Source: Rhodospirillales bacterium
GTDB taxonomy: Bacteria; Pseudomonadota; Alphaproteobacteria; UBA8366; JADFVY01
Direction of reading: 5' to 3'
Length of the DNA stretch: 64,000 nucleotides
Assembly (NCBI GenBank): GCA_020356105.1
Contig: CP070634.1
Span: 2,464,144 to 2,528,143 of the forward strand
Positions 20,021-31,542 of the stretch are shown here, in pieces. Below the pieces are notes generated by a model. It was not told where the DNA came from and ran no database searches. It saw only the letters and a list, made by a program, of their open reading frames with translations. The position numbers and the translations under genes are program-made. Positions within the stretch are counted from its first letter, which is position 1. Every line of letters starts with the position of its first letter.

Positions 20021-20989
20021 TCAGAGCCGCACCCACCGACCGTTCCAGGTCCGGCATGCGAGGCCGGGAACGAGGCGATCAACGCCGTTGTACCGGATCT
20101 CCTGGCGGAACACGCGGCAGAACTGACCGGCCTCGGTCTGCATCGTCTTGGTGACGGTCATCGTGATCGCGACATCACCTTCGGAAGACTGCCAGCGCGC
20201 CGCCTTACCCGAGGGCAGGCGTTCGAGAGTGTCCTGTTCGAGTTCGTAGAGTGCGCGTCTTGCCGTGCGGGTCAAGCCGTTCGGCGCCTGTTGGATCGAC
20301 ACGAGCTGGATGTCGAGTGGCTCGCGTCCCTGTATGCGGTCGATTCGCCGCACGTAGTGGCCGATCTCCGGTACGTAGTACCAGGTGCGCGTCTGCCGCC
20401 AGCGCCCGCGCGAATATCGGGTGCAGGAAATCTCGACCCCGTCGAAATCCCCGAATTGCAGAGAAACCCGCTCAGGCCCGACAACCGTACAAATCCAGTC
20501 GCGTCGAAAGAGGCGTCCCGATTGCTCGCCGTCGCGACGCACGTTGACGAGACTTTCGAATTTCCGTCGCGTCCCCGGTATCAGGGGCCACAACACATCT
20601 GGCGGCGCATCGACGGTACGGGTTATCACGCCCTTGTCGTTGCGCACCACAAGGGTGGGCAGTACGAAGTTCGGATAGCGTTCGAATTCGGATTGCAGAT
20701 CATTGCGCCAGACGATCCGCTCATCAATGATTTCCACGACGGTTTCGGTCCGTCCGCTCGAATAGGTGAATGCGTCGCCCAGCTGGTATCGCGGCAGATA
20801 CCCGAGCGGTGGTCCATCATAATCGGGGGGATCGTAGTCGGCCGAAAATGTGCCGTTGAGCGTCGAACCGATGCCCCAAAGCAGGTCTTTGGCGTCGCTC
20901 AGCTCCGGCGATGACGAGCAACTGCCCGCCGCAAGCGCCGCTGCAAATGCCCCGCCAAGAAACAGACCACGGACTCGCCGGTCAGCCAA
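20021..20989 (-). CDS. Probable lipoprotein with GD-x-FT and two-Cys C-terminal modules
   Basis: This 322-residue protein has a lipoprotein-like signal (ALAAGSC, Cys at about residue 24). Its first domain, YQLGDAFTYSSGR with ERIVWRNDLQSE, WICTV and EISCTRYSRG, parallels the SPOR lipoprotein at 11555-12562. Its last ~50 residues (GQFCRVFRQE, LACRTWNGRWVRL) parallel the C-terminus of the anti-sigma protein just upstream. It therefore joins two modules found separately in the window. It follows the sigma/anti-sigma genes on the same strand, beyond a hairpin terminator, and could be a read-through or independently transcribed member. Function unknown. Confidence 0.68.
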   Translation of the reverse strand: MADRRVRGLFLGGAFAAALAAGSCSSSPELSDAKDLLWGIGSTLNGTFSADYDPPDYDGPPLGYLPRYQLGDAFTYSSGRTETVVEIIDERIVWRNDLQSEFERYPNFVLPTLVVRNDKGVITRTVDAPPDVLWPLIPGTRRKFESLVNVRRDGEQSGRLFRRDWICTVVGPERVSLQFGDFDGVEISCTRYSRGRWRQTRTWYYVPEIGHYVRRIDRIQGREPLDIQLVSIQQAPNGLTRTARRALYELEQDTLERLPSGKAARWQSSEGDVAITMTVTKTMQTEAGQFCRVFRQEIRYNGVDRLVPGLACRTWNGRWVRL

Positions 20990-21121: not shown

Positions 21122-21931
21122 TCAGAAGCTCAACTTCGGGACCGTTCCAACCTCCGCCACGGCCTCGATCGTCTTGATCCAACGCCCCTGCGGACCCTGC
21201 TCGCGGCAGGCAACGCCATAGTTGGGGTGATCTGGACCGCTATTCGTGTCAACCGTCCGGAACGCCCGGCAAAACGTTCCGTCCTCCCGACGATACGTCT
21301 TGACCGGAATGATGGCGCCGCCATTTCCGGTTTCCGGATTCGTCCAGACAACCGCCGTCTCGCTTCTCTTTGTTTCGAGCGCCTCCTGGAACGCGGCCTC
21401 GCGCCATGGATTGTTGATCGCCGAAGCGACACTCACGCGTTGCTGGTTCGCGGCCTGCCGCACCTCGCTTGTCTGGTACTGGCCCAGCAGGAACCCGCCG
21501 CCAAGCATGACCGCGGCGAAGGCCGCCGCCGACGCGAAGGCCGCCACCGAACGACGCCGTGCCAATGACACGACCATCGGTCCCCGATATCCCGCAGGGT
21601 TGCGATCGTCCAGCGTCAGCTCGGCAGCCGTCTCGGCGCCTTCCGGCGCATCGAGTATCATGTTCACCAGATGCTGCGGCACAATCGATTCAGCGGTTGC
21701 GGATTCGGATTCCACCGCCATCATCACCGTGTCGATCAGCCGATCCGGCACCGTTTCGTGGATTACGTCATTGTGGGCGGCCTTGATCAAGAGCGCACCG
21801 TCGTGCAGCGCCCGTACGGTCCGCGCCGCCTCTGCGTCTTGCGCCAAACGAGATTCAACAACACGCGCCGACTCTGAGTCCAGCTCTCCGTCGACATAGG
21901 CAACGAGCGTATTCGCATCGAGGTGTTTCAT
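21122..21931 (-). CDS. Anti-sigma factor, membrane-spanning, with two-Cys C-terminal domain
   Basis: This 269-residue protein begins with an anti-sigma-like cytoplasmic part (HLDANTLVAYVDGELD, then ESRLAQDAEAART). It has no HxxxCxxC zinc motif. One membrane helix lies around residues 125-148 (AAFAAVMLGGGFLLG), so the remainder is periplasmic. The C-terminus contains GTFCRAFR and GVACREQGPQGRW, resembling the C-terminal module of the lipoprotein at 20021-20989 and of bacterial surface-antigen-like proteins. It follows the sigma gene by 68 bases, the normal arrangement for ECF sigma regulation. The two cysteines could form a disulfide or redox sensor (inference). Confidence 0.78.
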   Translation of the reverse strand: MKHLDANTLVAYVDGELDSESARVVESRLAQDAEAARTVRALHDGALLIKAAHNDVIHETVPDRLIDTVMMAVESESATAESIVPQHLVNMILDAPEGAETAAELTLDDRNPAGYRGPMVVSLARRRSVAAFASAAAFAAVMLGGGFLLGQYQTSEVRQAANQQRVSVASAINNPWREAAFQEALETKRSETAVVWTNPETGNGGAIIPVKTYRREDGTFCRAFRTVDTNSGPDHPNYGVACREQGPQGRWIKTIEAVAEVGTVPKLSF

Positions 21932-21999: not shown

Positions 22000-22557
22000 C
22001 TAGGCTTCGCCGCCCTTGGCGGCGAAGGTCGACCGTTCCGATCCGCCCACCATGCGGTTGAGGGCCAGCCGCGCCCGGGACAGCCGGCTCATCACCGTGC
22101 CAACCGGAATTCCGAGCGTCTCGGCGGTTTCCCTGTAGGAGCATCCCTCCACGCAGACGAGCAGCAGAACAGACCGTTGATCCGGCGGAAGCCTTTGAAC
22201 ACCGCGTCGAACCGCCTCGAGCGTCAGCCGGTTCATGGTGGCTTGCTCGCCATCCATGCCCGGAGTCTTCTGCCCCTCCGGCTCGACCAGCGACAAGTGA
22301 CTACCACGCAGCTTGCCGACGCGGATCGCGTCGATCCAAAGATTCTGCATGATGCGGAACATCCAACTGTCCAGCCGGGTGCCCGGTTGCCACTGGTTGA
22401 TGCGTTGAATCGCCCTTTCGCAGGCTGCCTGCACCAGATCGTCGGCCTCTTCCTCCGATCCGGTAAGGCCACGCGCAAACCGCCGCAAGCGCGGCAGCAG
22501 GGCAATCATTTCGGCCTTTGTTCGCTTGTCCAAGAGGAATTTTCCTTGCAACGTCAT
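22000..22557 (-). CDS. ECF-family RNA polymerase sigma factor
   Basis: This 185-residue protein has sigma region 2 (EADDLVQAACERAIQRINQW, then RLDSWMFRIMQNLWID) and region 4 (LPPDQRSVLLLVCVEGCSYR, TAETLGIPVGTVMSRLSRAR). It would direct RNA polymerase to a small regulon and be held inactive by the anti-sigma encoded next. A GGAAT-N16-CGTT element just upstream suggests that it transcribes its own gene. Confidence 0.92.
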   Translation of the reverse strand: MTLQGKFLLDKRTKAEMIALLPRLRRFARGLTGSEEEADDLVQAACERAIQRINQWQPGTRLDSWMFRIMQNLWIDAIRVGKLRGSHLSLVEPEGQKTPGMDGEQATMNRLTLEAVRRGVQRLPPDQRSVLLLVCVEGCSYRETAETLGIPVGTVMSRLSRARLALNRMVGGSERSTFAAKGGEA

Positions 22558-22563
22558 TATCTT

Positions 22564-22588
22564 AACGAACAGGCAACGAGTTTATTCC
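22564..22588 (-). promoter_or_regulatory. Putative ECF promoter of the sigma factor gene
   Basis: On the minus strand GGAAT (22588-22584) is followed after exactly 16 bases by CGTT (22567-22564), a few bases before the sigma factor ATG at 22557. GGAAT/GGAAC with CGTT is a common -35/-10 pair for alphaproteobacterial ECF sigma factors. The short distance to the ATG implies a very short leader. Confidence 0.6.
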
Positions 22589-22870
22589 CGGCAGTTTAAA
22601 AAAAACGTAAATGGCGCCCGCCATCGTTCCGACCCACGCTGGCTTCGTCGCTTCAAGCCCGGTCGACCACAAATCGCCGGGTCGCACCCTGGTCCGCGCC
22701 CACCATGCGTCGTGCAAAGCCGCGAGCGGTCGACGTGGTGCCGAGCCATGCGGCGACGCGGTCTTCGGCGATGGACGGTCGCCGTTTACCAATCCTTAGC
22801 GGGGCCGGCGCTAGTCTGGGCGAAATTGGCGGGATCGCGCGCCTTGCCCGCGATTTTGCCGGTTCGAAGC

Positions 22871-22895
22871 GGAATATTCGCCCGGATGATACGTT
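22871..22895 (+). promoter_or_regulatory. Putative ECF promoter of the secreted NGW-motif gene
   Basis: GGAAT (22871-22875) is followed after exactly 16 bases by CGTT (22892-22895), 75 bases before the ATG at 22970. Motif and spacing are identical to the element in front of the divergent sigma factor gene. Confidence 0.6.
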
Positions 22896-22969
22896 GTTGT
22901 TCGAAATGCCTGGATGAAATCCAACGACCACCAAATGGCATGGTCGCTGTCTGAATTGGGGACATTACA

Positions 22970-23347
22970 ATGCCTAACTTGATCCGCACGAAATACCGCC
23001 GCGGAAACGCCGTGGCCCGCTTCTCGCGCTTGTCGCTGTTCTGGGCCACCGTCGGCGCCGTATTCTTTGCGCTGGCATTGCCCTCCGGGCTGCACAACGC
23101 CAACCCGGGGATAAGTCCGGCTCATGCGGCGAGTGAAGACGACAATCCCGCCGGCAGCGATGGCGCCAACGCATCGACACCTCCGCAACTCGGGGACCAG
23201 GGCCGGTCCCAGTCTGGCGTGATCAAGCAAGTTGCCGGTGTGAGCGAAGAAACCGAGCTGTCGGACGAGGAAGAGCTCGAGGCAATTCGAAACGGTTGGG
23301 GTACCTGGCGAACGGCGGACGGTCCCGAATCCGTCGTGGCGCAGTGA
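22970..23347 (+). CDS. Small secreted protein with C-terminal EELxAIxNGW motif
   Basis: This 125-residue protein is unrecognised. It has a basic N-terminus, a hydrophobic signal (SLFWATVGAVFFALALP), a probable cleavage after PAHA, a polar acidic middle, and the C-terminal motif DEEELEAIRNGWGTW. The same C-terminal pattern ends the protein at 23626-24240. It is preceded by the ECF-type element at 22871-22895, so it is a likely sigma target. No cysteines, so no lipoprotein or disulfide. Function unknown. Confidence 0.7.
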   Translation: MPNLIRTKYRRGNAVARFSRLSLFWATVGAVFFALALPSGLHNANPGISPAHAASEDDNPAGSDGANASTPPQLGDQGRSQSGVIKQVAGVSEETELSDEEELEAIRNGWGTWRTADGPESVVAQ

Positions 23348-23625: not shown

Positions 23626-24240
23626 ATGGCTAAGAAAGGAACCGCCGCATCGATTGAAGCGAGACCGGCGGTACAGCGCGACCCGGCGCCGTTGTGTGCA
23701 GCATTGTACCGGCGCGTCCCGGCGGGCCTTTGGGCGGCCGTGTTCCTCATGGCAGTTGCCCTCCCGGTGACTTTCGATACCGCGTCATTAAGTCCCGCCA
23801 TAGATTCAGCGCTGGCGGCCGGAAACGGCAACGGTGATGGTCAGGGCAGAGGCAACGGCAACGGCAAGGGCCGGGGCGATGAGAAAGGCGGCGGCAAACG
23901 GCCCGGCGGAGGCGGGGGCGACGACGATGACGATGATGACCATGACGACGATGATCATGGAGGAAGCGACCCGTCCGGCGATGACCACGGCGATGACCGC
24001 GGCGATGACCGCGGCGATGTTGTCAACGACGGCGGTCACGACGATATTGGCGGTGCGAATGAGACAGAGTCCGCCGAAGCGATCGCGGATGTCGTCGAGC
24101 CAAATCAGGAAGCCGTAGCCGGCCCGGCCGCATCGGCGTTGCCGACAATCCACCAGGTATTCTCGCTTGGCGAAGACGCGGTCCTGAATAGTGAGCAGGA
24201 GTTGTTGGCCATCAAGAATGGCTGGAACTCCCAGAACTAA
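23626..24240 (+). CDS. Secreted Gly/Asp/His-rich protein with C-terminal EELxAIxNGW motif
   Basis: This 204-residue protein is unrecognised. CGGAGGGCG precedes the ATG. A signal-like segment (LWAAVFLMAVALP) ends near SALAAG, followed by a GNG/GRG-rich stretch, an extremely acidic run (DDDDDDDHDDDDH), tandem GDDRGD-type repeats, and a C-terminal part with SEQELLAIKNGWNSQN. The Asp/His cluster resembles low-affinity calcium or metal-binding repeats, but that is inference. It shares its architecture and final motif with the preceding secreted protein. I found no clear ECF element immediately upstream, so it may depend on the upstream promoter or another one. Confidence 0.68.
   Translation: MAKKGTAASIEARPAVQRDPAPLCAALYRRVPAGLWAAVFLMAVALPVTFDTASLSPAIDSALAAGNGNGDGQGRGNGNGKGRGDEKGGGKRPGGGGGDDDDDDDHDDDDHGGSDPSGDDHGDDRGDDRGDVVNDGGHDDIGGANETESAEAIADVVEPNQEAVAGPAASALPTIHQVFSLGEDAVLNSEQELLAIKNGWNSQN
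23977..24020 (+). repeat. In-frame 12-base tandem repeat
   Basis: The unit GGCGATGACCGC occurs three full times with one mismatch, plus a partial fourth copy (starts 23977, 23989, 24001, 24013). Being a multiple of three, it codes for repeated GDDR/GDDH and could change in copy number without breaking the frame. Confidence 0.8.
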
Positions 24241-24437
24241 GACAGTCCCCCCTCCCCGCCCAAGCGACCTCCGCACGCTGAAATCGCGTCCCGCCGCGCG
24301 CCGTCAGCGGCTGCCCCCGAACATGGCGGTGGCGTTGAACCCCTTGATATGCGAACATAAAGTCTCTTCATGAAACGGCCCTGCTGTTGCCCCGTTGAGG
24401 CAGAGCGCCGCAAGACTTGAAGAACAGGGAGACAAGA

Positions 24438-25649
24438 ATGAAACCTGATATTGCAATGCGGCTGGGCGCCGCGGTCGTCATGGCGGCGACGACGTTGGGA
24501 ACGGTTTCGGTGCACGCGGAGGTGACCGTGGGCGCGTTGATGCCGCTGACCGGACCGCTCGGCGAATATGGCGAGAGCTCGTTGAACGGTGTCAAGCTCG
24601 CGGCCCAGCAGATCAACCAGTCCGGTGGCTTGCTGGGCGAAGCCATGAACATCGCCGTTGGCGACACCCAGACAAATCCGCAGTCCGGCGTTCTTGCCGC
24701 CAAGCAGTTGATCGCGACCAACAAGGTCGCAGGCATCATCGGCCCGCTGGCGAGCGGCGTAACGATTCCCGTCGCGCAGAGCGTCACGAGCGTATCCGCT
24801 ATCCCGCAAATTTCGAGCGCCTCAACAGCGCCCACCATCACGACACTGAAGGACAACGACTTTCTGTTCCGCTCGACGCCGCACGACGCGTTGCAGGGCA
24901 TCGTCCTTGGCGACGTGGTCAAGGAGGCCGGCTATTCGAAGATCGCGGTCATTTACGTGAACAACGATTACGGCAAGGGCCTCGCGGACGCGTTCTCAGC
25001 GCGCTTCGCCAAGCTGGGCGGTGCTGTTACCGCATCGATCGCCTATGAGGAGAAGCAGGCGAGTTATCGCGGAGAGTTGACACAGGCGGCGAAAGGCGAT
25101 CCGGAAGCGCTGGCTCTGATCGGATACCCGGGTGACGGCGTGCCGATGCTGAAACAGGCCATCGAGGAAGGATTGTTCGGCAAGTTCATCTTCACCGACG
25201 GGATGAAATCCCTTGATATGACGAAGGCGATTCCGGCGAAGTATCTGGAGGGCTCGATCGGCACGTCGCCGGAAGCCCAGGAGTCGGAAGCCAAACGGCT
25301 GTTCGAGGGGGCCTACGAAGCCTCCTTCGGCAAGAAGCCGCCTCTGCCCTTCATCGATACCGCGTACGATGCAACTTTTCTGCTGGCGCTCGCCATCGAA
25401 AAGGCCGGTACGACCGATGGCGCGAAGGTTCGGGACGCCTTGCGGCCGGTCGCCAACCCGCCGGGCGAGCCCATCCTCCCCGGTGAATGGGCGAAGGCGA
25501 AGAAGCTGATCGCCGAAGGCAAGGATATCGATTACGTCGGCGCATCCGGCAGCCAGAACCTCGACGACGCGGGCGACGTCCCCGGCACCTTCGGGGTGTG
25601 GTCGGTCAGGGGAGGTGAAATCACCACTCTGAGAATCGTCGAGCCGTAG
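24438..25649 (+). CDS. livK: Branched-chain-type ABC substrate-binding protein, system 2
   Basis: This 403-residue type I periplasmic binding protein has a signal peptide ending near VSVHA, then VTVGALMPLTGPLGEYGES, GIIGPLASGVT and VIYVNNDYGKGLADAF. GGGAGACAAGA precedes the ATG at 24438. It is convergent with the livGFHM operon that follows, with which it probably functions. The resemblance is to Leu/Ile/Val-type amino acid binding proteins, but the ligand is not certain. Confidence 0.87.
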   Translation: MKPDIAMRLGAAVVMAATTLGTVSVHAEVTVGALMPLTGPLGEYGESSLNGVKLAAQQINQSGGLLGEAMNIAVGDTQTNPQSGVLAAKQLIATNKVAGIIGPLASGVTIPVAQSVTSVSAIPQISSASTAPTITTLKDNDFLFRSTPHDALQGIVLGDVVKEAGYSKIAVIYVNNDYGKGLADAFSARFAKLGGAVTASIAYEEKQASYRGELTQAAKGDPEALALIGYPGDGVPMLKQAIEEGLFGKFIFTDGMKSLDMTKAIPAKYLEGSIGTSPEAQESEAKRLFEGAYEASFGKKPPLPFIDTAYDATFLLALAIEKAGTTDGAKVRDALRPVANPPGEPILPGEWAKAKKLIAEGKDIDYVGASGSQNLDDAGDVPGTFGVWSVRGGEITTLRIVEP

Positions 25650-25676
25650 GCAGCGCCTTCACAACAACGCTGTCCG

Positions 25677-25701
25677 GCGCCCGCGGCCCCGCCGCGGGCG
25701 C
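25677..25701. terminator. Hairpin between convergent livK and livM genes
   Basis: A perfect 10-bp stem (GCGCCCGCGG / CCGCGGGCGC) with a 5-base loop sits in the 67-base gap between convergent genes. There is no clear T run on either side, but the position fits a shared bidirectional terminator. Confidence 0.6.
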
Positions 25702-25716
25702 TGGCACGTCCGCCCG

Positions 25717-26700
25717 CTACTTGCCGTCGCTGATATCAGATCGTCGCCGCCGCCGTTCCTCACGGCGCGTGACGAACTGAGATTCCGGCAGCAGGCCCTG
25801 CGGCCGGGTTAGAAGAATGATCTCGAGAAGGAGCCCGACCAGGAACATGCGGACCGTGGCCGCGCGCGTCAGATATTCCGGCGGGGCGAACGCGTTGGTC
25901 AGATACTCGGTGCCGGCCCAGATCGTCCAGATCACGAGCGCGCCCAACAGCGCACCCCGGTTGTTGCCGCTGCCGCCGGCAATCAGCATTACCCAGATCA
26001 GGAACGTTGTGTACATCGGATCGAACGCCTCGGGGCTGACGAAACCGAAGAAATGGGCGTAGAGGCCGCCCGCCAGCCCCATGATTGCCGAGCCGAGGAC
26101 GAAGCTCTCGAGGCGAAATCGAACCGTGTTCTTGCCGGCGGCCATCACCGCGATCTCCCGCTCGCGGATCGCCCGCATGACCCGGCCCCAAGGCGACTGG
26201 CGGCCGCGTTCGAGCGCCGCATAAACCACAACGAGTGCAAGGGCCACGACCAGAAGGTTGGTAACGCCCGTCGGGTCGTCGAACCAGCCGGCGAAGGGGC
26301 GCGGAATGCCCGCGATACCCCGGACACCGTTGGTCAGCCATTCCTCGTTCTTGAGAACAAGGCGAATGATCTCGGCGATGCCAATCGTGGCGATGGCGAG
26401 ATAATCCTCGCGCAGGTTCAGCGTGATCAAGCCGATCAGCAGCGCGATGGTTCCGCTGAGCAGGATCCCGACAAGCAGGCCGACGGCCATCGGCAGGCCG
26501 AAACCGCCGACATAACCGGGGCTATCGGCCGTCGTGAGAATGGCGCTGGTATATGCGCCGATGGCAAAGAACCCCGCGATCCCGATGTTGAACAGGCCGG
26601 TCAGACCCCATTGGACATTCAGTCCGAGCGCCAGGACGCCGTAGATGCCGACGAGGCTCAAGAAGAAGACGACGAACGTGAACAGCTCGAAGAGATCCAT
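25717..26700 (-). CDS. livM: Branched-chain-type ABC transporter permease (LivM-like), system 2
   Basis: This 327-residue permease has several helices. NVQWGLTGLFNIGIAGFFAI near the N-terminus and the loop MRAIREREIAVMAAGKNTV are LivM features. The C-terminus is basic (REERRRRRSD). It lies 9 bases after livH and is the last gene of the livG-F-H-M operon. Confidence 0.9.
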   Translation of the reverse strand: MDLFELFTFVVFFLSLVGIYGVLALGLNVQWGLTGLFNIGIAGFFAIGAYTSAILTTADSPGYVGGFGLPMAVGLLVGILLSGTIALLIGLITLNLREDYLAIATIGIAEIIRLVLKNEEWLTNGVRGIAGIPRPFAGWFDDPTGVTNLLVVALALVVVYAALERGRQSPWGRVMRAIREREIAVMAAGKNTVRFRLESFVLGSAIMGLAGGLYAHFFGFVSPEAFDPMYTTFLIWVMLIAGGSGNNRGALLGALVIWTIWAGTEYLTNAFAPPEYLTRAATVRMFLVGLLLEIILLTRPQGLLPESQFVTRREERRRRRSDISDGK

Positions 26701-26709
26701 TGCCCGCCC

Positions 26710-27573
26710 CTAGCGTGGTGCGCCGAACAGTCCGGTCGGCCGGACGAGAAGCATCACCACCATCAGCGCAAACGCCACGGCCGGCTTGTAGACGGGAGGA
26801 AACACCATCGTCGAAAGCTCGGAGGCGATGCCGACCACCATGCCGCCGACAATGGCGCCATAGGGCTTGCCGATGCCGCCGAGAATCGCTGCGGCGAAGA
26901 CCGGCAATAGGATGTGCCAGCCCATCGTCGGCTGCAACCGCGTGTCCATGCCGAGAAAGATCCCCGCCGCCACGGCGAGCGCGGCCCCGATCACCCAGGT
27001 CCACACGACCACCAGCTCGGTGTCGATGCCGACGATGCGGGCCAGCTCGGGATTGTCGGCCATGGCCCGCATCGCCTTTCCCGTCCGGGTGCGGGTCAGA
27101 AACAGATGCAATATCACGACGAGGATCACGGCGCCGGCAACGATTTGCAGCTGTGTCGGTTTGAGCCTGATACCAAGCAGTCGGACCGGCATCTGCAGCT
27201 CCTGGGTATAGACCTGCGTGTCCGGCCCCCAGACGAACTGGACGAGGCTGCGGAGGATCAGCGCGATCCCGACGGACGCGATCAGCAGGATCACCGGAGC
27301 GGTCCGACGCAGCCGCCGATAGAGCGTCTGGTCGATGAGAACGGCCAGCCCGACGCCGCCGCCGACGGCGAGCGCCGATGCGGCCCATATCGGCAGGCCC
27401 AGCCCCGTCACGCCGGCCAGCGCCAGGTAGGCGCCGACGGTCATCACGTCGCCATGGGCGAAATGTGCGAATCGCAGGATACCGTAAAGCAGGGACAGGC
27501 CGATCGCGCCCAGCGAAATGATGCTGCCGAGCACGATCCCGTAAACCGTCAACTGTATGATCTCGAGGACCAT
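26710..27573 (-). CDS. livH: Branched-chain-type ABC transporter permease (LivH-like), system 2
   Basis: This 287-residue permease has typical LivH features: TVYGIVLGSIISLGAIGLSL, LRFAHFAHGDVMTVGAYLA and the EAA-like loop MRAMADNPELARIVGIDTE. It sits between livF and livM with gaps of 8 and 9 bases. Confidence 0.9.
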   Translation of the reverse strand: MVLEIIQLTVYGIVLGSIISLGAIGLSLLYGILRFAHFAHGDVMTVGAYLALAGVTGLGLPIWAASALAVGGGVGLAVLIDQTLYRRLRRTAPVILLIASVGIALILRSLVQFVWGPDTQVYTQELQMPVRLLGIRLKPTQLQIVAGAVILVVILHLFLTRTRTGKAMRAMADNPELARIVGIDTELVVVWTWVIGAALAVAAGIFLGMDTRLQPTMGWHILLPVFAAAILGGIGKPYGAIVGGMVVGIASELSTMVFPPVYKPAVAFALMVVMLLVRPTGLFGAPR

Positions 27574-27581
27574 GCGTCGCT

Positions 27582-28282
27582 CTACCCGCCGAGAAACATT
27601 TCCGCGACCTCGCGGTTGGCCAGAAGATTGGCGCCGGTGTCTTCGTAGCGGTTGGCGCCCAATGTCAGGACGTAGCCGCGATGGGCGAGGCCCAAGGCCT
27701 GTTTCGCGTTCTGCTCGACCATCAGGATGCTGGTTCCGCCGGCATTGATCTCGACGATCTTCTCAAAGATCAGCTCGGTAAAGGCGGGCGACAGGCCGGC
27801 CGTCGGCTCGTCGAGCAGCAGCAGCCTTGGCTCCAGCATCAGCGCCCGTGCGATGGCGACCATCTGGCGCTGCCCGCCGGACAACGACCCGGCCCGGCTC
27901 GCCCGCTTCTCCTTGAGCGGCGGGAAGATGTCGTACACGCGGGCAAGCTGGCCGGAAAAGTCGTCGCGACGGATGAAGGCGCCCATCTCCAGGTTCTCGT
28001 GCACCGTCATCGAGGCGAACACGTTGCTCTCCTGCGGAACATAAGAGATGCCGAGGCGCGCCAGCCGATCGGACCGGAGCCGGGTGATGTCAACACCGTC
28101 GAAGACGAGGCGCCCCTCGCGGATGTCTACGAGGCCGAAAACGGCTTTCATCGCGGTCGACTTGCCGGCGCCGTTCGGTCCGACGACGACGACGATCTCG
28201 CCCGCCTCGACGCGCAGATCGATGCCGTTCAGGATATCCGCGCCCCCGTAACCGCCGCGAAGTCGGGTCATCGACAGGAGGC

Positions 28283-28286
<4 letters not shown>
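27582..28286 (-). CDS. livF: Branched-chain-type ABC transporter ATPase (LivF-like), system 2
   Basis: This 234-residue ATPase has Walker A GPNGAGKS, signature LSGGQRQMVAIARAL and Walker [14 protein letters not shown]. The ATG at 28286 overlaps the livG stop. Unlike the LivF of system 1 it has the ordinary family length without an N-terminal extension. Confidence 0.9.
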
Positions 28287-29116
<830 letters not shown>

Positions 29117-29562
29117 ACGCCGTCCTGCTCGTTCGGTCAACGCACGTCGCAACCGCCCGCCGCCGACCCTCTGCCGAGCGCGACAGCGCGGTCGACCGGG
29201 CGGCTGGCGGTCGTAGCGCACTGGTAGTGTGAAATAACCTCCCGATCAAGCCGCATCGGCGACAGAACGACGCACAAGCTGCCGCAACCCCATAATCGTT
29301 TTACGGGAATTTCGGAACCGGAAAGTAATTAAGGATTGCTTTCACCCCGTTTTTGGATTTTTCCAAATAAGTGCCTATATCGGCGTCTCTCGATTGGCGA
29401 GGTTTCCAGTGGTTAAGTGATTTTTTACTATTCTTTTCTATGACATAGGGGGAATTTTCGAACCGATTTTTCGTTTGATGAGATGCATATCGCGATTGAC
29501 CGAAATGGCATTGCATTTGCATGGCACTGAGCAGCCGTTCACTTGGCTGATCAAGGGTCGAA
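29117..29562. other. Divergent intergenic region between livG and the first DUF4402 gene
   Basis: This 446-base gene-free stretch is AT-richer than its surroundings from about 29290 on. It contains the sigma-54-like element at 29506-29521. No recognisable ORF or RNA gene is present. Confidence 0.6.
29506..29521 (+). promoter_or_regulatory. Sigma-54-type promoter upstream of DUF4402 gene 1
   Basis: TGGCATTGCATTTGCA matches the -24/-12 consensus TGGCAC-N5-TTGCA, with the invariant GG (29507-29508) and GC (29519-29520) exactly 10 bases apart. A start about 12 bases past the GC would leave a leader of about 30 bases before the ATG at 29563. Confidence 0.7.
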
Positions 29563-30168
29563 ATGATGAGACAGGTGCGCCGCACCAGCACACGCGAAAA
29601 TCGCCGCGCCATGCACCGGGCCTGTGGCGAGCGTATCGATTCGGCCATCGGCCGCGGACGTTGGAGGGCTTGGCATGCTGCTGGCGGCGCAATCGGGCTG
29701 CTGCTGTTGGTCTCCGTCAATCCGGCGCTCGCCCAGGTCTGCGGCACGCCGCCATGTGGCGGCGGCGGCGGCAAGCCGTTGACCATCACCTGGGCCCAGG
29801 ACCTCGAATTCGGCACGCTGGCCGGGGACGGGACGTTCTCGGGCACCGCGACGATCAATCCCGTATCCGGCGCCAAGACGGTCGCCGGCGGGGTGTACGA
29901 TTTCGGCGGCATCAACAATCCGGCGGTCTTCGACATCAGGGGGGAGAAGAACACGACGTTCTCGATCACGCTGCCCGGCTCGGTGATCCTGAGCTCGGGT
30001 GGCAGCACCATGACGTTGAACAATTTCACGTCGAGCCCGTCGGGCTTCGGCGTGTTGGCTAACAACGGCCAGGCGACGCTCTCGGTCGGCGCGACCCTGC
30101 AGGTCGGGGCCGGGCAGCCCGCGGGCGCCTATACGGGCGTGTTCACGGTGACGGTGAATTACCAGTAA
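29563..30168 (+). CDS. DUF4402-family secreted subunit protein 1
   Basis: This 201-residue protein has a long basic N-terminus, a signal-type hydrophobic segment (AIGLLLLVSV, ending NPALAQ) and a DUF4402-like beta-rich domain: LEFGTLAGDG, FDIRGEKNTTFSITLP, then LSVGATLQVG and AYTGVFTVTVNYQ at the C-terminus. The alternating hydrophobic C-terminal strand resembles chaperone-recognised pilin ends. AAGGG precedes the ATG; an alternative start lies at 29611. It is the first of three DUF4402-type genes before a PapD-like chaperone, so it is a probable fibre subunit. Confidence 0.78.
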   Translation: MMRQVRRTSTRENRRAMHRACGERIDSAIGRGRWRAWHAAGGAIGLLLLVSVNPALAQVCGTPPCGGGGGKPLTITWAQDLEFGTLAGDGTFSGTATINPVSGAKTVAGGVYDFGGINNPAVFDIRGEKNTTFSITLPGSVILSSGGSTMTLNNFTSSPSGFGVLANNGQATLSVGATLQVGAGQPAGAYTGVFTVTVNYQ

Positions 30169-30278
30169 TGGCGGGATAACGTACGGGCCTTGTATTTGGA
30201 ACAATCAGATAGATCATTGCAGTTAAATCACGAGAGGTTAAAGAAATCGACAATTTAAAACAAATCCCGATGAAATAA

Positions 30279-30295
30279 TTGGCATAAAAATTGCT
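30279..30295 (+). promoter_or_regulatory. Sigma-54-type promoter upstream of DUF4402 gene 2
   Basis: TTGGCATAAAAATTGCT matches the sigma-54 consensus with GG (30281-30282) and GC (30293-30294) separated by exactly 10 bases. It lies in the 240-base AT-rich gap between the first and second DUF4402 genes and would give a leader of about 100 bases. Confidence 0.72.
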
Positions 30296-30408
30296 TATCT
30301 TTTTGCAGGTCAGCAATCATCAAGATCGGGATGATCGGGGGTTAGCCGGCAGCCGGAGTATTGGCAGCCTAGGATTAAAGAAAGTAGTATTATTAATGGA
30401 GATTAGTC

Positions 30409-30924
30409 ATGAAGTTCACGAAGCGCATTAGCACACTGGCCGCCGGAGTGGCGGCTCTCGGCGTCGCCGGCCTCGGCTCGACCAGCGCAATGGCGGCCCA
30501 AGACCAGGTCAATGCCAACGCCACCATTGTCGATGCGATCGGCATTACCGGTGATCGGTCGCTCGAATTCGGCACCATTATCAATGGCGCCGCCAACACG
30601 GTTACCATCGCCAACACCGCCGCCGGCACGCGATCGGCGACCGATCCGACCCAACTACTACTGGGCGGCGGCGAGCAATCCGCCCAGTTCACGGTCTCGG
30701 GCGATCCCGGCCGGAGCTACAACTTGACGGTTCCCCCGTCGATTACCGTGACTGAAACTGGGGGCACTACGATGACGGTCAACAATATTCAGCACAGCGC
30801 GACCGGCACTCTCGATGGAGTAACCGGTAACGAGGTGTTCTACGTCGGCGGCGACCTGATCGTCACCAACGGCCAGCTGGCCGGGACCTACAGCGGAACG
30901 CTGCTCATCCAGGTCGATTACTGA
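30409..30924 (+). CDS. DUF4402-family secreted subunit protein 2 (probable major subunit)
   Basis: This 171-residue protein has a clear signal peptide (GVAALGVAGLGSTSAMA) and a complete DUF4402-like domain: SLEFGTIINGAANTVTI, AQFTVSGDPGRSYNLTVP, FYVGGDLIVTNGQ and TYSGTLLIQVDY at the end. The mature protein is small, polar and cysteine-free. Ending in an aromatic after a beta strand is typical of chaperone-dependent subunits. It has its own sigma-54-like promoter, and GGAG lies before the ATG. Being the shortest, most canonical copy with its own promoter, it is the best candidate for the main structural subunit (inference). Confidence 0.82.
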   Translation: MKFTKRISTLAAGVAALGVAGLGSTSAMAAQDQVNANATIVDAIGITGDRSLEFGTIINGAANTVTIANTAAGTRSATDPTQLLLGGGEQSAQFTVSGDPGRSYNLTVPPSITVTETGGTTMTVNNIQHSATGTLDGVTGNEVFYVGGDLIVTNGQLAGTYSGTLLIQVDY

Positions 30925-30945
30925 TCGGATCGGGATAACCGCGCA

Positions 30946-31542
30946 ATGCGCATGAACTTCGCAGCACGTCAGAGCGCCCATGCCCGTGATCGGGCATGGG
31001 CCGCGCTGGCGTTTGCCGCGGCTTTCGCATCGACTTCCCCGGCAATGGCCCAGCAGTCAAACCGGCCCCAGAACTCGGCCCTGTTAACGCCGATGGCCAC
31101 GACGACCACCGCCACCACAGCGGGCGCGACGATCATCGACCGGCTCGCGGTCGCCAAATATTCCGATGTCAATCTCGGTCGCGCGTCCATCCCCGCCGAC
31201 AGCACCGCCACGCTGGAGCTGCGGCCGACCGGTGAGTTGACCGCAGAAGGCTCCGGCAATCCCCATGTCGACGTTTCGTTTTCCGCGGTCTTCACGCTGA
31301 CCGGCGAGCCGAACCAGACGTTCGGCATCTCGCTGCCGCATTCGATGCCGGTGGCAACGGGTGCGATAACCCAGAGCGTGCGCGCGTTTCTCCATGATGC
31401 CGGCAAGACACCGCTCGTCGGCGCCGCGGGCAACGGCCGCTTCAACGTCGGCGCCGTGTTCAGTGTCGGACGGGAGGGCGGCGGAAAATCGCAGACCGAA
31501 GTTTACATCGGCGCCGTTAACGTTATCGTATCGAATAATTGA
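30946..31542 (+). CDS. Divergent DUF4402-like secreted subunit protein 3
   Basis: This 198-residue protein has a signal segment (AALAFAAAFASTSPAMA) and a diverged DUF4402-like domain: YSDVNLGRASIPADST, AVFTLTGEPNQTFGISLP, FNVGAVFSVG and VYIGAVNVIVSNN. It lacks the final aromatic residue. It starts 21 bases after gene 2 and is probably cotranscribed with it. It could be a minor or tip subunit (inference). Confidence 0.7.
   Translation: MRMNFAARQSAHARDRAWAALAFAAAFASTSPAMAQQSNRPQNSALLTPMATTTTATTAGATIIDRLAVAKYSDVNLGRASIPADSTATLELRPTGELTAEGSGNPHVDVSFSAVFTLTGEPNQTFGISLPHSMPVATGAITQSVRAFLHDAGKTPLVGAAGNGRFNVGAVFSVGREGGGKSQTEVYIGAVNVIVSNN

Follow-up and report, generated by a model that had tools for sequence, protein, structure and literature searches.

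Does the ECF sigma factor encoded at this locus transcribe its own gene together with the divergent gene for a secreted protein, and does the locus thereby form a closed envelope-response unit? In the window, a stretch of 64,000 nucleotides, two GGAAT-N16-CGTT elements face away from each other between these genes. A first reading, made from the sequence only, had taken them for an autoregulation and target pair. The features concerned are as follows.

20021..20989, minus strand: putative lipoprotein; its C-terminus repeats the periplasmic domain of the anti-sigma
21122..21931, minus strand: membrane anti-sigma with an N-terminal zf-HC2-like part, one TM helix and a periplasmic beta domain
22000..22533, minus strand: ECF sigma, probably of the RpoE6-type ECF26 (Sigma70_r2 and r4_2)
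22564..22567, minus strand: -10 of the sigma operon, CGTT, at N16 spacing; TTCGTTA invariant in 4/4 family genomes
22584..22588, minus strand: -35 of the sigma operon, GGAAT (exact; GGAATAAAC invariant in 4/4)
22598..22605, minus strand: T8 tract just 5' of the sigma -35, a possible UP-like element; at least 7 consecutive T invariant in 4/4
22871..22875, plus strand: -35 of secreted gene A, GGAAT (exact; GGAATA[AT]T in 4/4)
22892..22897, plus strand: -10 of secreted gene A, CGTTGT, invariant in 4/4
22970..23347, plus strand: secreted protein A, the divergent target, with a signal-peptide-like N-terminus and orthologues in L080-L082
23626..24240, plus strand: secreted protein B, rich in Gly and Asp, encoded downstream of A

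Both elements lie exactly where the sequence-only reading had placed them. The sigma-side copy, 22588 to 22564 on the minus strand, reads GGAATAAACTCGTTGCCTGTTCGTT, and the A-side copy, 22871-22895 on the plus strand, reads GGAATATTCGCCCGGATGATACGTT. The whole window holds three exact matches for an expectation of 0.60, a number reached by 3 of 100 shuffles. For the 412 bp intergenic region (22558-22969), none of 5000 dinucleotide shuffles had one site per strand. Both elements, with their N16 spacing, are kept in the four sigma-bearing genomes of the family (window, L080, L081 and L082). Within each promoter all nine element positions are invariant, and only 15/53 and 8/53 of the flanking positions are. 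In more distant orthologues (46-57% identity), the same element is often found 5' of the sigma gene, of the divergent gene or of both (L072, L074, L075, L076, L094, L102, L105, L195 and L196).

A genome-wide search for the motif had been proposed as a way to define the regulon. Its bare count proved uninformative, but the placement of the sites did not. The own genome contains 25 GGAAT-N16-CGTT sites, no surplus over other spacings, with GGAAC variants about equally frequent; pooled GGAAY-N15..18-CGTT gives 193 matches against 161 in the reversed controls. We therefore gave up arguing for a regulon from the bare count. In contrast, a predicted gene begins no more than 300 nt downstream of 11 of the 25 N16 sites, but of only 1 of 36 GGAAT sites with N15, N17 or N18 (codon-usage-based gene calls; Fisher p = 1e-4, or 5e-4 without the two discovery sites). 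The extension GGAATWW is present at 13/14 non-genic N16 sites and at 1/11 genic ones, and most non-genic sites also extend to CGTTGT. The intragenic matches, about 11 of the 25, are probably due to chance. The exact form GGAATAA-N14-CGTTGT occurs five times in the own genome, for an expectation of about 0.03 from base composition that is biased, the consensus having been drawn from the same sites. Altogether, it is extremely improbable that the housekeeping sigma serves this promoter region and that both elements match by chance: the unremarkable bare count would suit that reading, but the shuffles, the 4/4 conservation amid diverged flanks, an upstream bias confined to N16 and the experimental parallel in S. 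meliloti described below all argue against it.

The locus had also been called self-contained, a view that did not hold up. A third exact match, located further along in the window, precedes another gene for a secreted protein.

29451..29475, plus strand: third GGAAT-N16-CGTT element (GGAATTTT..CGTTTG)
29611..30168, plus strand: secreted DUF4402 protein (Pfam E 1.7e-31), a probable further target

The extended element GGAATWW-N14-CGTTGT is present in 8, 5, 6 and 4 copies in the four sigma-bearing family genomes, with 0 in the reversed control; outside the family, 36 copies were found in 108 genomes, about 0.33 per genome (115 genomes searched). The predicted targets are coherent and partly orthologous. 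Most family members have secreted DUF2914/Gly-rich proteins among them, the own genome and G001 have similar phosphonate-binding-like periplasmic proteins, and G005 and G006 have L,D-transpeptidases with peptidoglycan-binding domains; a matching site lies close to the end of a contig in G003. A further predicted target is the Gly-rich protein G000:C1:2909073. As judged from sequence, the locus would thus be the hub of a regulon of about ten genes, mostly for secreted or envelope proteins. No relevant paper on DUF2914 was found in the literature searched. We also noted that several secreted proteins, DUF4402 in at least one case, are encoded in a row at 29611-31500 of the plus strand. DUF4402-like genes lie near A and B in L081 and L082; in the window a transporter block (24417-29221) seems to intervene.

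The elements had been likened to the general -35/-10 pattern of alphaproteobacterial ECF sigma factors. The promoter type is indeed known, but group ECF26 fits better. The -35 GGAATA and -10 CGT(T) of ECF26 promoters are present, and the anti-sigma is encoded downstream, with an N-terminal anti-sigma domain, one TM and a periplasmic domain. The sigma is 52% identical to an RpoE6-type sigma of pSymA that adjoins an S8 peptidase, although the tree, whose backbone is poorly separated, omitted the pSymA sequence. The S8 neighbour and an identical promoter sequence suggest that the pSymA protein is RpoE6 itself. Close plasmid-borne relatives of the window sigma are likewise divergent from S8 peptidases. 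Such a divergent S8 serine protease, which is a conserved context of RpoE6-type ECF26 and no strict group definition, is absent here, and the secreted proteins A and B stand in its place. The S8 genes of this genome lie elsewhere only, neither near the sigma gene nor directly behind the listed elements.

In S. meliloti, the GGAAT-N16-CGTT promoter of the divergent S8 gene, SMa0142, has been mapped and is RpoE6-dependent; the transcript starts 9 nt past GGAATAGACCGACGACTCAGCCGTT, with a log change of 4.7 when RpoE6 is overexpressed (PMC6180224). This gives direct experimental support, from a homologous system, to the inference on the divergent gene. By analogy, the transcript of gene A is predicted to start near 22904, and that of the sigma operon would start within an ATG at 22557. 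This ATG, only 7 nt past CGTT, was rejected as the sigma start since it is not conserved in the family. The start is probably TTG 22533, preceded by a Shine-Dalgarno sequence at 22543-22547; TTG and Shine-Dalgarno (AAGGA or AAGGG) are both conserved. Given the conservation, the genome-wide placement and the mapped SMa0142 promoter (PMC6180224), it is very likely, as first proposed, that the sigma transcribes itself and the divergent secreted protein. Autoregulation through GGAAT-N16-CGTT is not universal, because S. meliloti rpoE6 itself has an RpoD-like promoter (PMC6180224).

Could another sigma factor be the main reader of these elements? The candidates are L035, an ECF26-like paralogue (G000:C1:3310120), and an EcfG-type sigma. 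ECF26 sigmas of S. meliloti show cross-talk, and L035 has GGAATAAT-N16-TGTA in front of its gene. G003 carries three exact elements and an L035-type sigma, but its fragmented assembly (790 contigs) yielded neither the window-type sigma nor A, which makes cross-reading by the paralogue possible. Against this, L035 orthologues in 16 non-family genomes show no clear element excess, G005 has six elements and no L035 match, and the element fronts the window-type sigma in 4/4 genomes. As for the EcfG-type sigma, the best PDB match of the window sigma is chain 5uxx, which we take to be of that type. All conserved sites nevertheless read GGAAT, and no PhyR domain scored over the cut-off in the own genome; a general stress response was rejected on the latter ground, and its sigma is unlikely to read the elements. 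For EcfG sites, the -35 is GGAAC (Table 1, PMC6180224). That another sigma mainly reads the elements is accordingly improbable. Two further observations belong here: L035 is part of a second ECF26-like sigma/anti-sigma pair, possibly of sister promoter specificity, and two exact elements of G003 (L146, L147) lie 5' of DUF2914-like Gly-rich genes, and its third lies near a contig end. The lack of sigma and A in G003 may reflect an assembly gap or cross-reading.

We consider it highly probable that the window sigma, an RpoE6-type factor presumably released by an envelope signal, transcribes its own operon, the divergent gene A and about ten scattered genes through GGAAT-N16-CGTT elements. An envelope signal would free the sigma from the one-helix membrane anti-sigma. 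RNA polymerase with the sigma would then act on GGAATAAAC-N12-CGTT in front of the sigma/anti-sigma operon, a positive feedback in which the inhibitor is co-produced. On GGAATWW-N14-CGTTGT, it would transcribe A as well as the scattered genes, most of whose products are exported or belong to the envelope. A promoter element for B itself was rejected, as a search for GGAAT-N16-CGTT in front of B found none, and B is probably transcribed by read-through from A. The signal-driven release, the autoregulation in this organism and the physiological role are what we infer. The lipoprotein 20021-20989 is a possible co-sensor: it adjoins the anti-sigma throughout the family and matches it over about 100 aa (BLASTP E 5e-8; domain pattern CR..ACR). 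In Roseibium-type loci L101 and L104, a similar lipoprotein is located beyond the tail-bearing gene.

What might the secreted proteins contribute? A matched no Pfam or NCBIfam family. Both A and B carry a C-terminal tail with the consensus LSxxEExxAIxxGW.

23255..23299, plus strand: tail motif of A, ELSDEEELEAIRNGW, matching an HMM built on the anti-sigma tails of S8-type loci with a score that 0/300 shuffles equal
24181..24225, plus strand: tail motif of B, VLNSEQELLAIKNGW, matching the same HMM

At S8-type loci it is the anti-sigma that ends in a periplasmic tail, G..L[SDN]..[AE]E..A[IL]..GW, with the GW absent or substituted in rhizobial anti-sigmas and in L195. The window anti-sigma has a conserved Cys pair in its periplasmic beta domain and no GW tail; its AF2 model shows helices, a TM at 123-153 and a beta domain at low confidence (mean pLDDT 48). 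The anti-sigma is tail-less in the window family, L072, L077 and the Roseibium-type L101 and L104, and in all of these the divergent gene encodes a secreted Gly/Asp/Ser-rich protein with the tail at or near its C-terminus, an exclusivity of limited weight as the loci are phylogenetically non-independent. An HMM built on 21 non-redundant anti-sigma tails was searched against 475 C-termini: secreted tails fill places 1-11 (two of them from B orthologues), L077 ranks 13, and the matches listed include no end of a class-2 anti-sigma. For every tail, 300 shuffled versions all scored lower, and the first five places still go to secreted tails when the HMM is restricted to anti-sigmas from outside the Alphaproteobacteria. 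By this profile comparison, the tail of A and B is homologous to the anti-sigma tail of S8-type loci. Three proteins of the own genome bear it: A, B and 2909073, whose gene is preceded by an exact element of its own. Among 115 genomes, the tail is confined to sigma-bearing ones, 6/7 of which supplied the model.

Most simply, the tail would be a working component of the sensing module that is provided either in cis or in trans. More tentatively, a C-terminal sensor tail may have moved from the anti-sigma to sigma-induced secreted proteins, where it would work in trans, on the anti-sigma or a partner, and feed back the state of export or of the envelope. It is a real possibility, if short of probable, that the tail on anti-sigmas and secreted proteins instead docks to a third partner, for instance a protease or an export factor with its gene at another locus, with no contact between tail and anti-sigma. 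The pairing of the anti-sigma tail with a co-regulated secreted S8 protease at S8-type loci is in line with such docking, as are S8 genes elsewhere in genomes with tails on secreted proteins, but those of the window genome are neither close to the sigma nor directly behind its listed elements. Moreover, the tail of the modelled S8-type anti-sigma (L083) is predicted to be helical and ordered (block pLDDT 90-95), which suits cis contact; Foldseek with this model against the PDB gave no match at E <= 0.001. An attempt to tell from a tree whether tails came to secreted proteins once or several times was abandoned on account of the poorly separated backbone and long branches. Separately, many of the loci L084-L103 (Roseateles/Pelomonas and relatives) have a secreted Gly-rich protein (MFATRRTQVLRTTLS...) beyond the S8 gene; its tail is unrelated, and exported Gly-rich partners seem general at such loci.

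The tail common to the anti-sigma and the secreted targets of its sigma is a small candidate peptide, ligand or degron, for the signal of RpoE6-type ECF26 systems, and its transfer from cis to trans, if true, would be a new feedback wiring into an anti-sigma factor. The regulon predicted here also consists of little-studied exported proteins (DUF2914, DUF4402, A/B). The present system would act like outer-membrane stress sensing by RseA/DegS if a peptide from the C-terminus of an exported protein signals to the membrane anti-sigma, a likeness of principle only. With EcfG/PhyR/NepR (ECF15), it shares a related sigma and a similar promoter with CGTT, but EcfG sites are GGAAC there and the anti-sigma is a membrane protein here. 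RpoE1/RpoE4 of S. meliloti, ECF26 sigmas of the sulfite response, recognize -35 GGAATA and -10 GT and target sulfite oxidation genes (PMC3511301, PMC6180224). The window system resembles them in consensus, in membrane anti-sigmas and, as inferred here, in an autoregulated operon; no sorT-type target was seen among the predicted ones. The sigma/anti-sigma arrangement with a divergent target, and the promoter type, are thus already known from ECF26. Closest is RpoE6-EcfR6-SMa0142 of S. meliloti, with the anti-sigma 3' of the sigma and a divergent secreted protein. Unlike S. meliloti rpoE6 and its RpoD-like promoter, the window sigma has an ECF element of its own. No relevant paper on a secreted tail-bearing partner of an anti-sigma was found in the literature searched, within which this exchange of the S8 protease for tail-bearing proteins seems to be a variant not described before: the divergent protein is an S8 protease in S. 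meliloti, whereas Gly/Asp-rich GW-tailed proteins take its place here.
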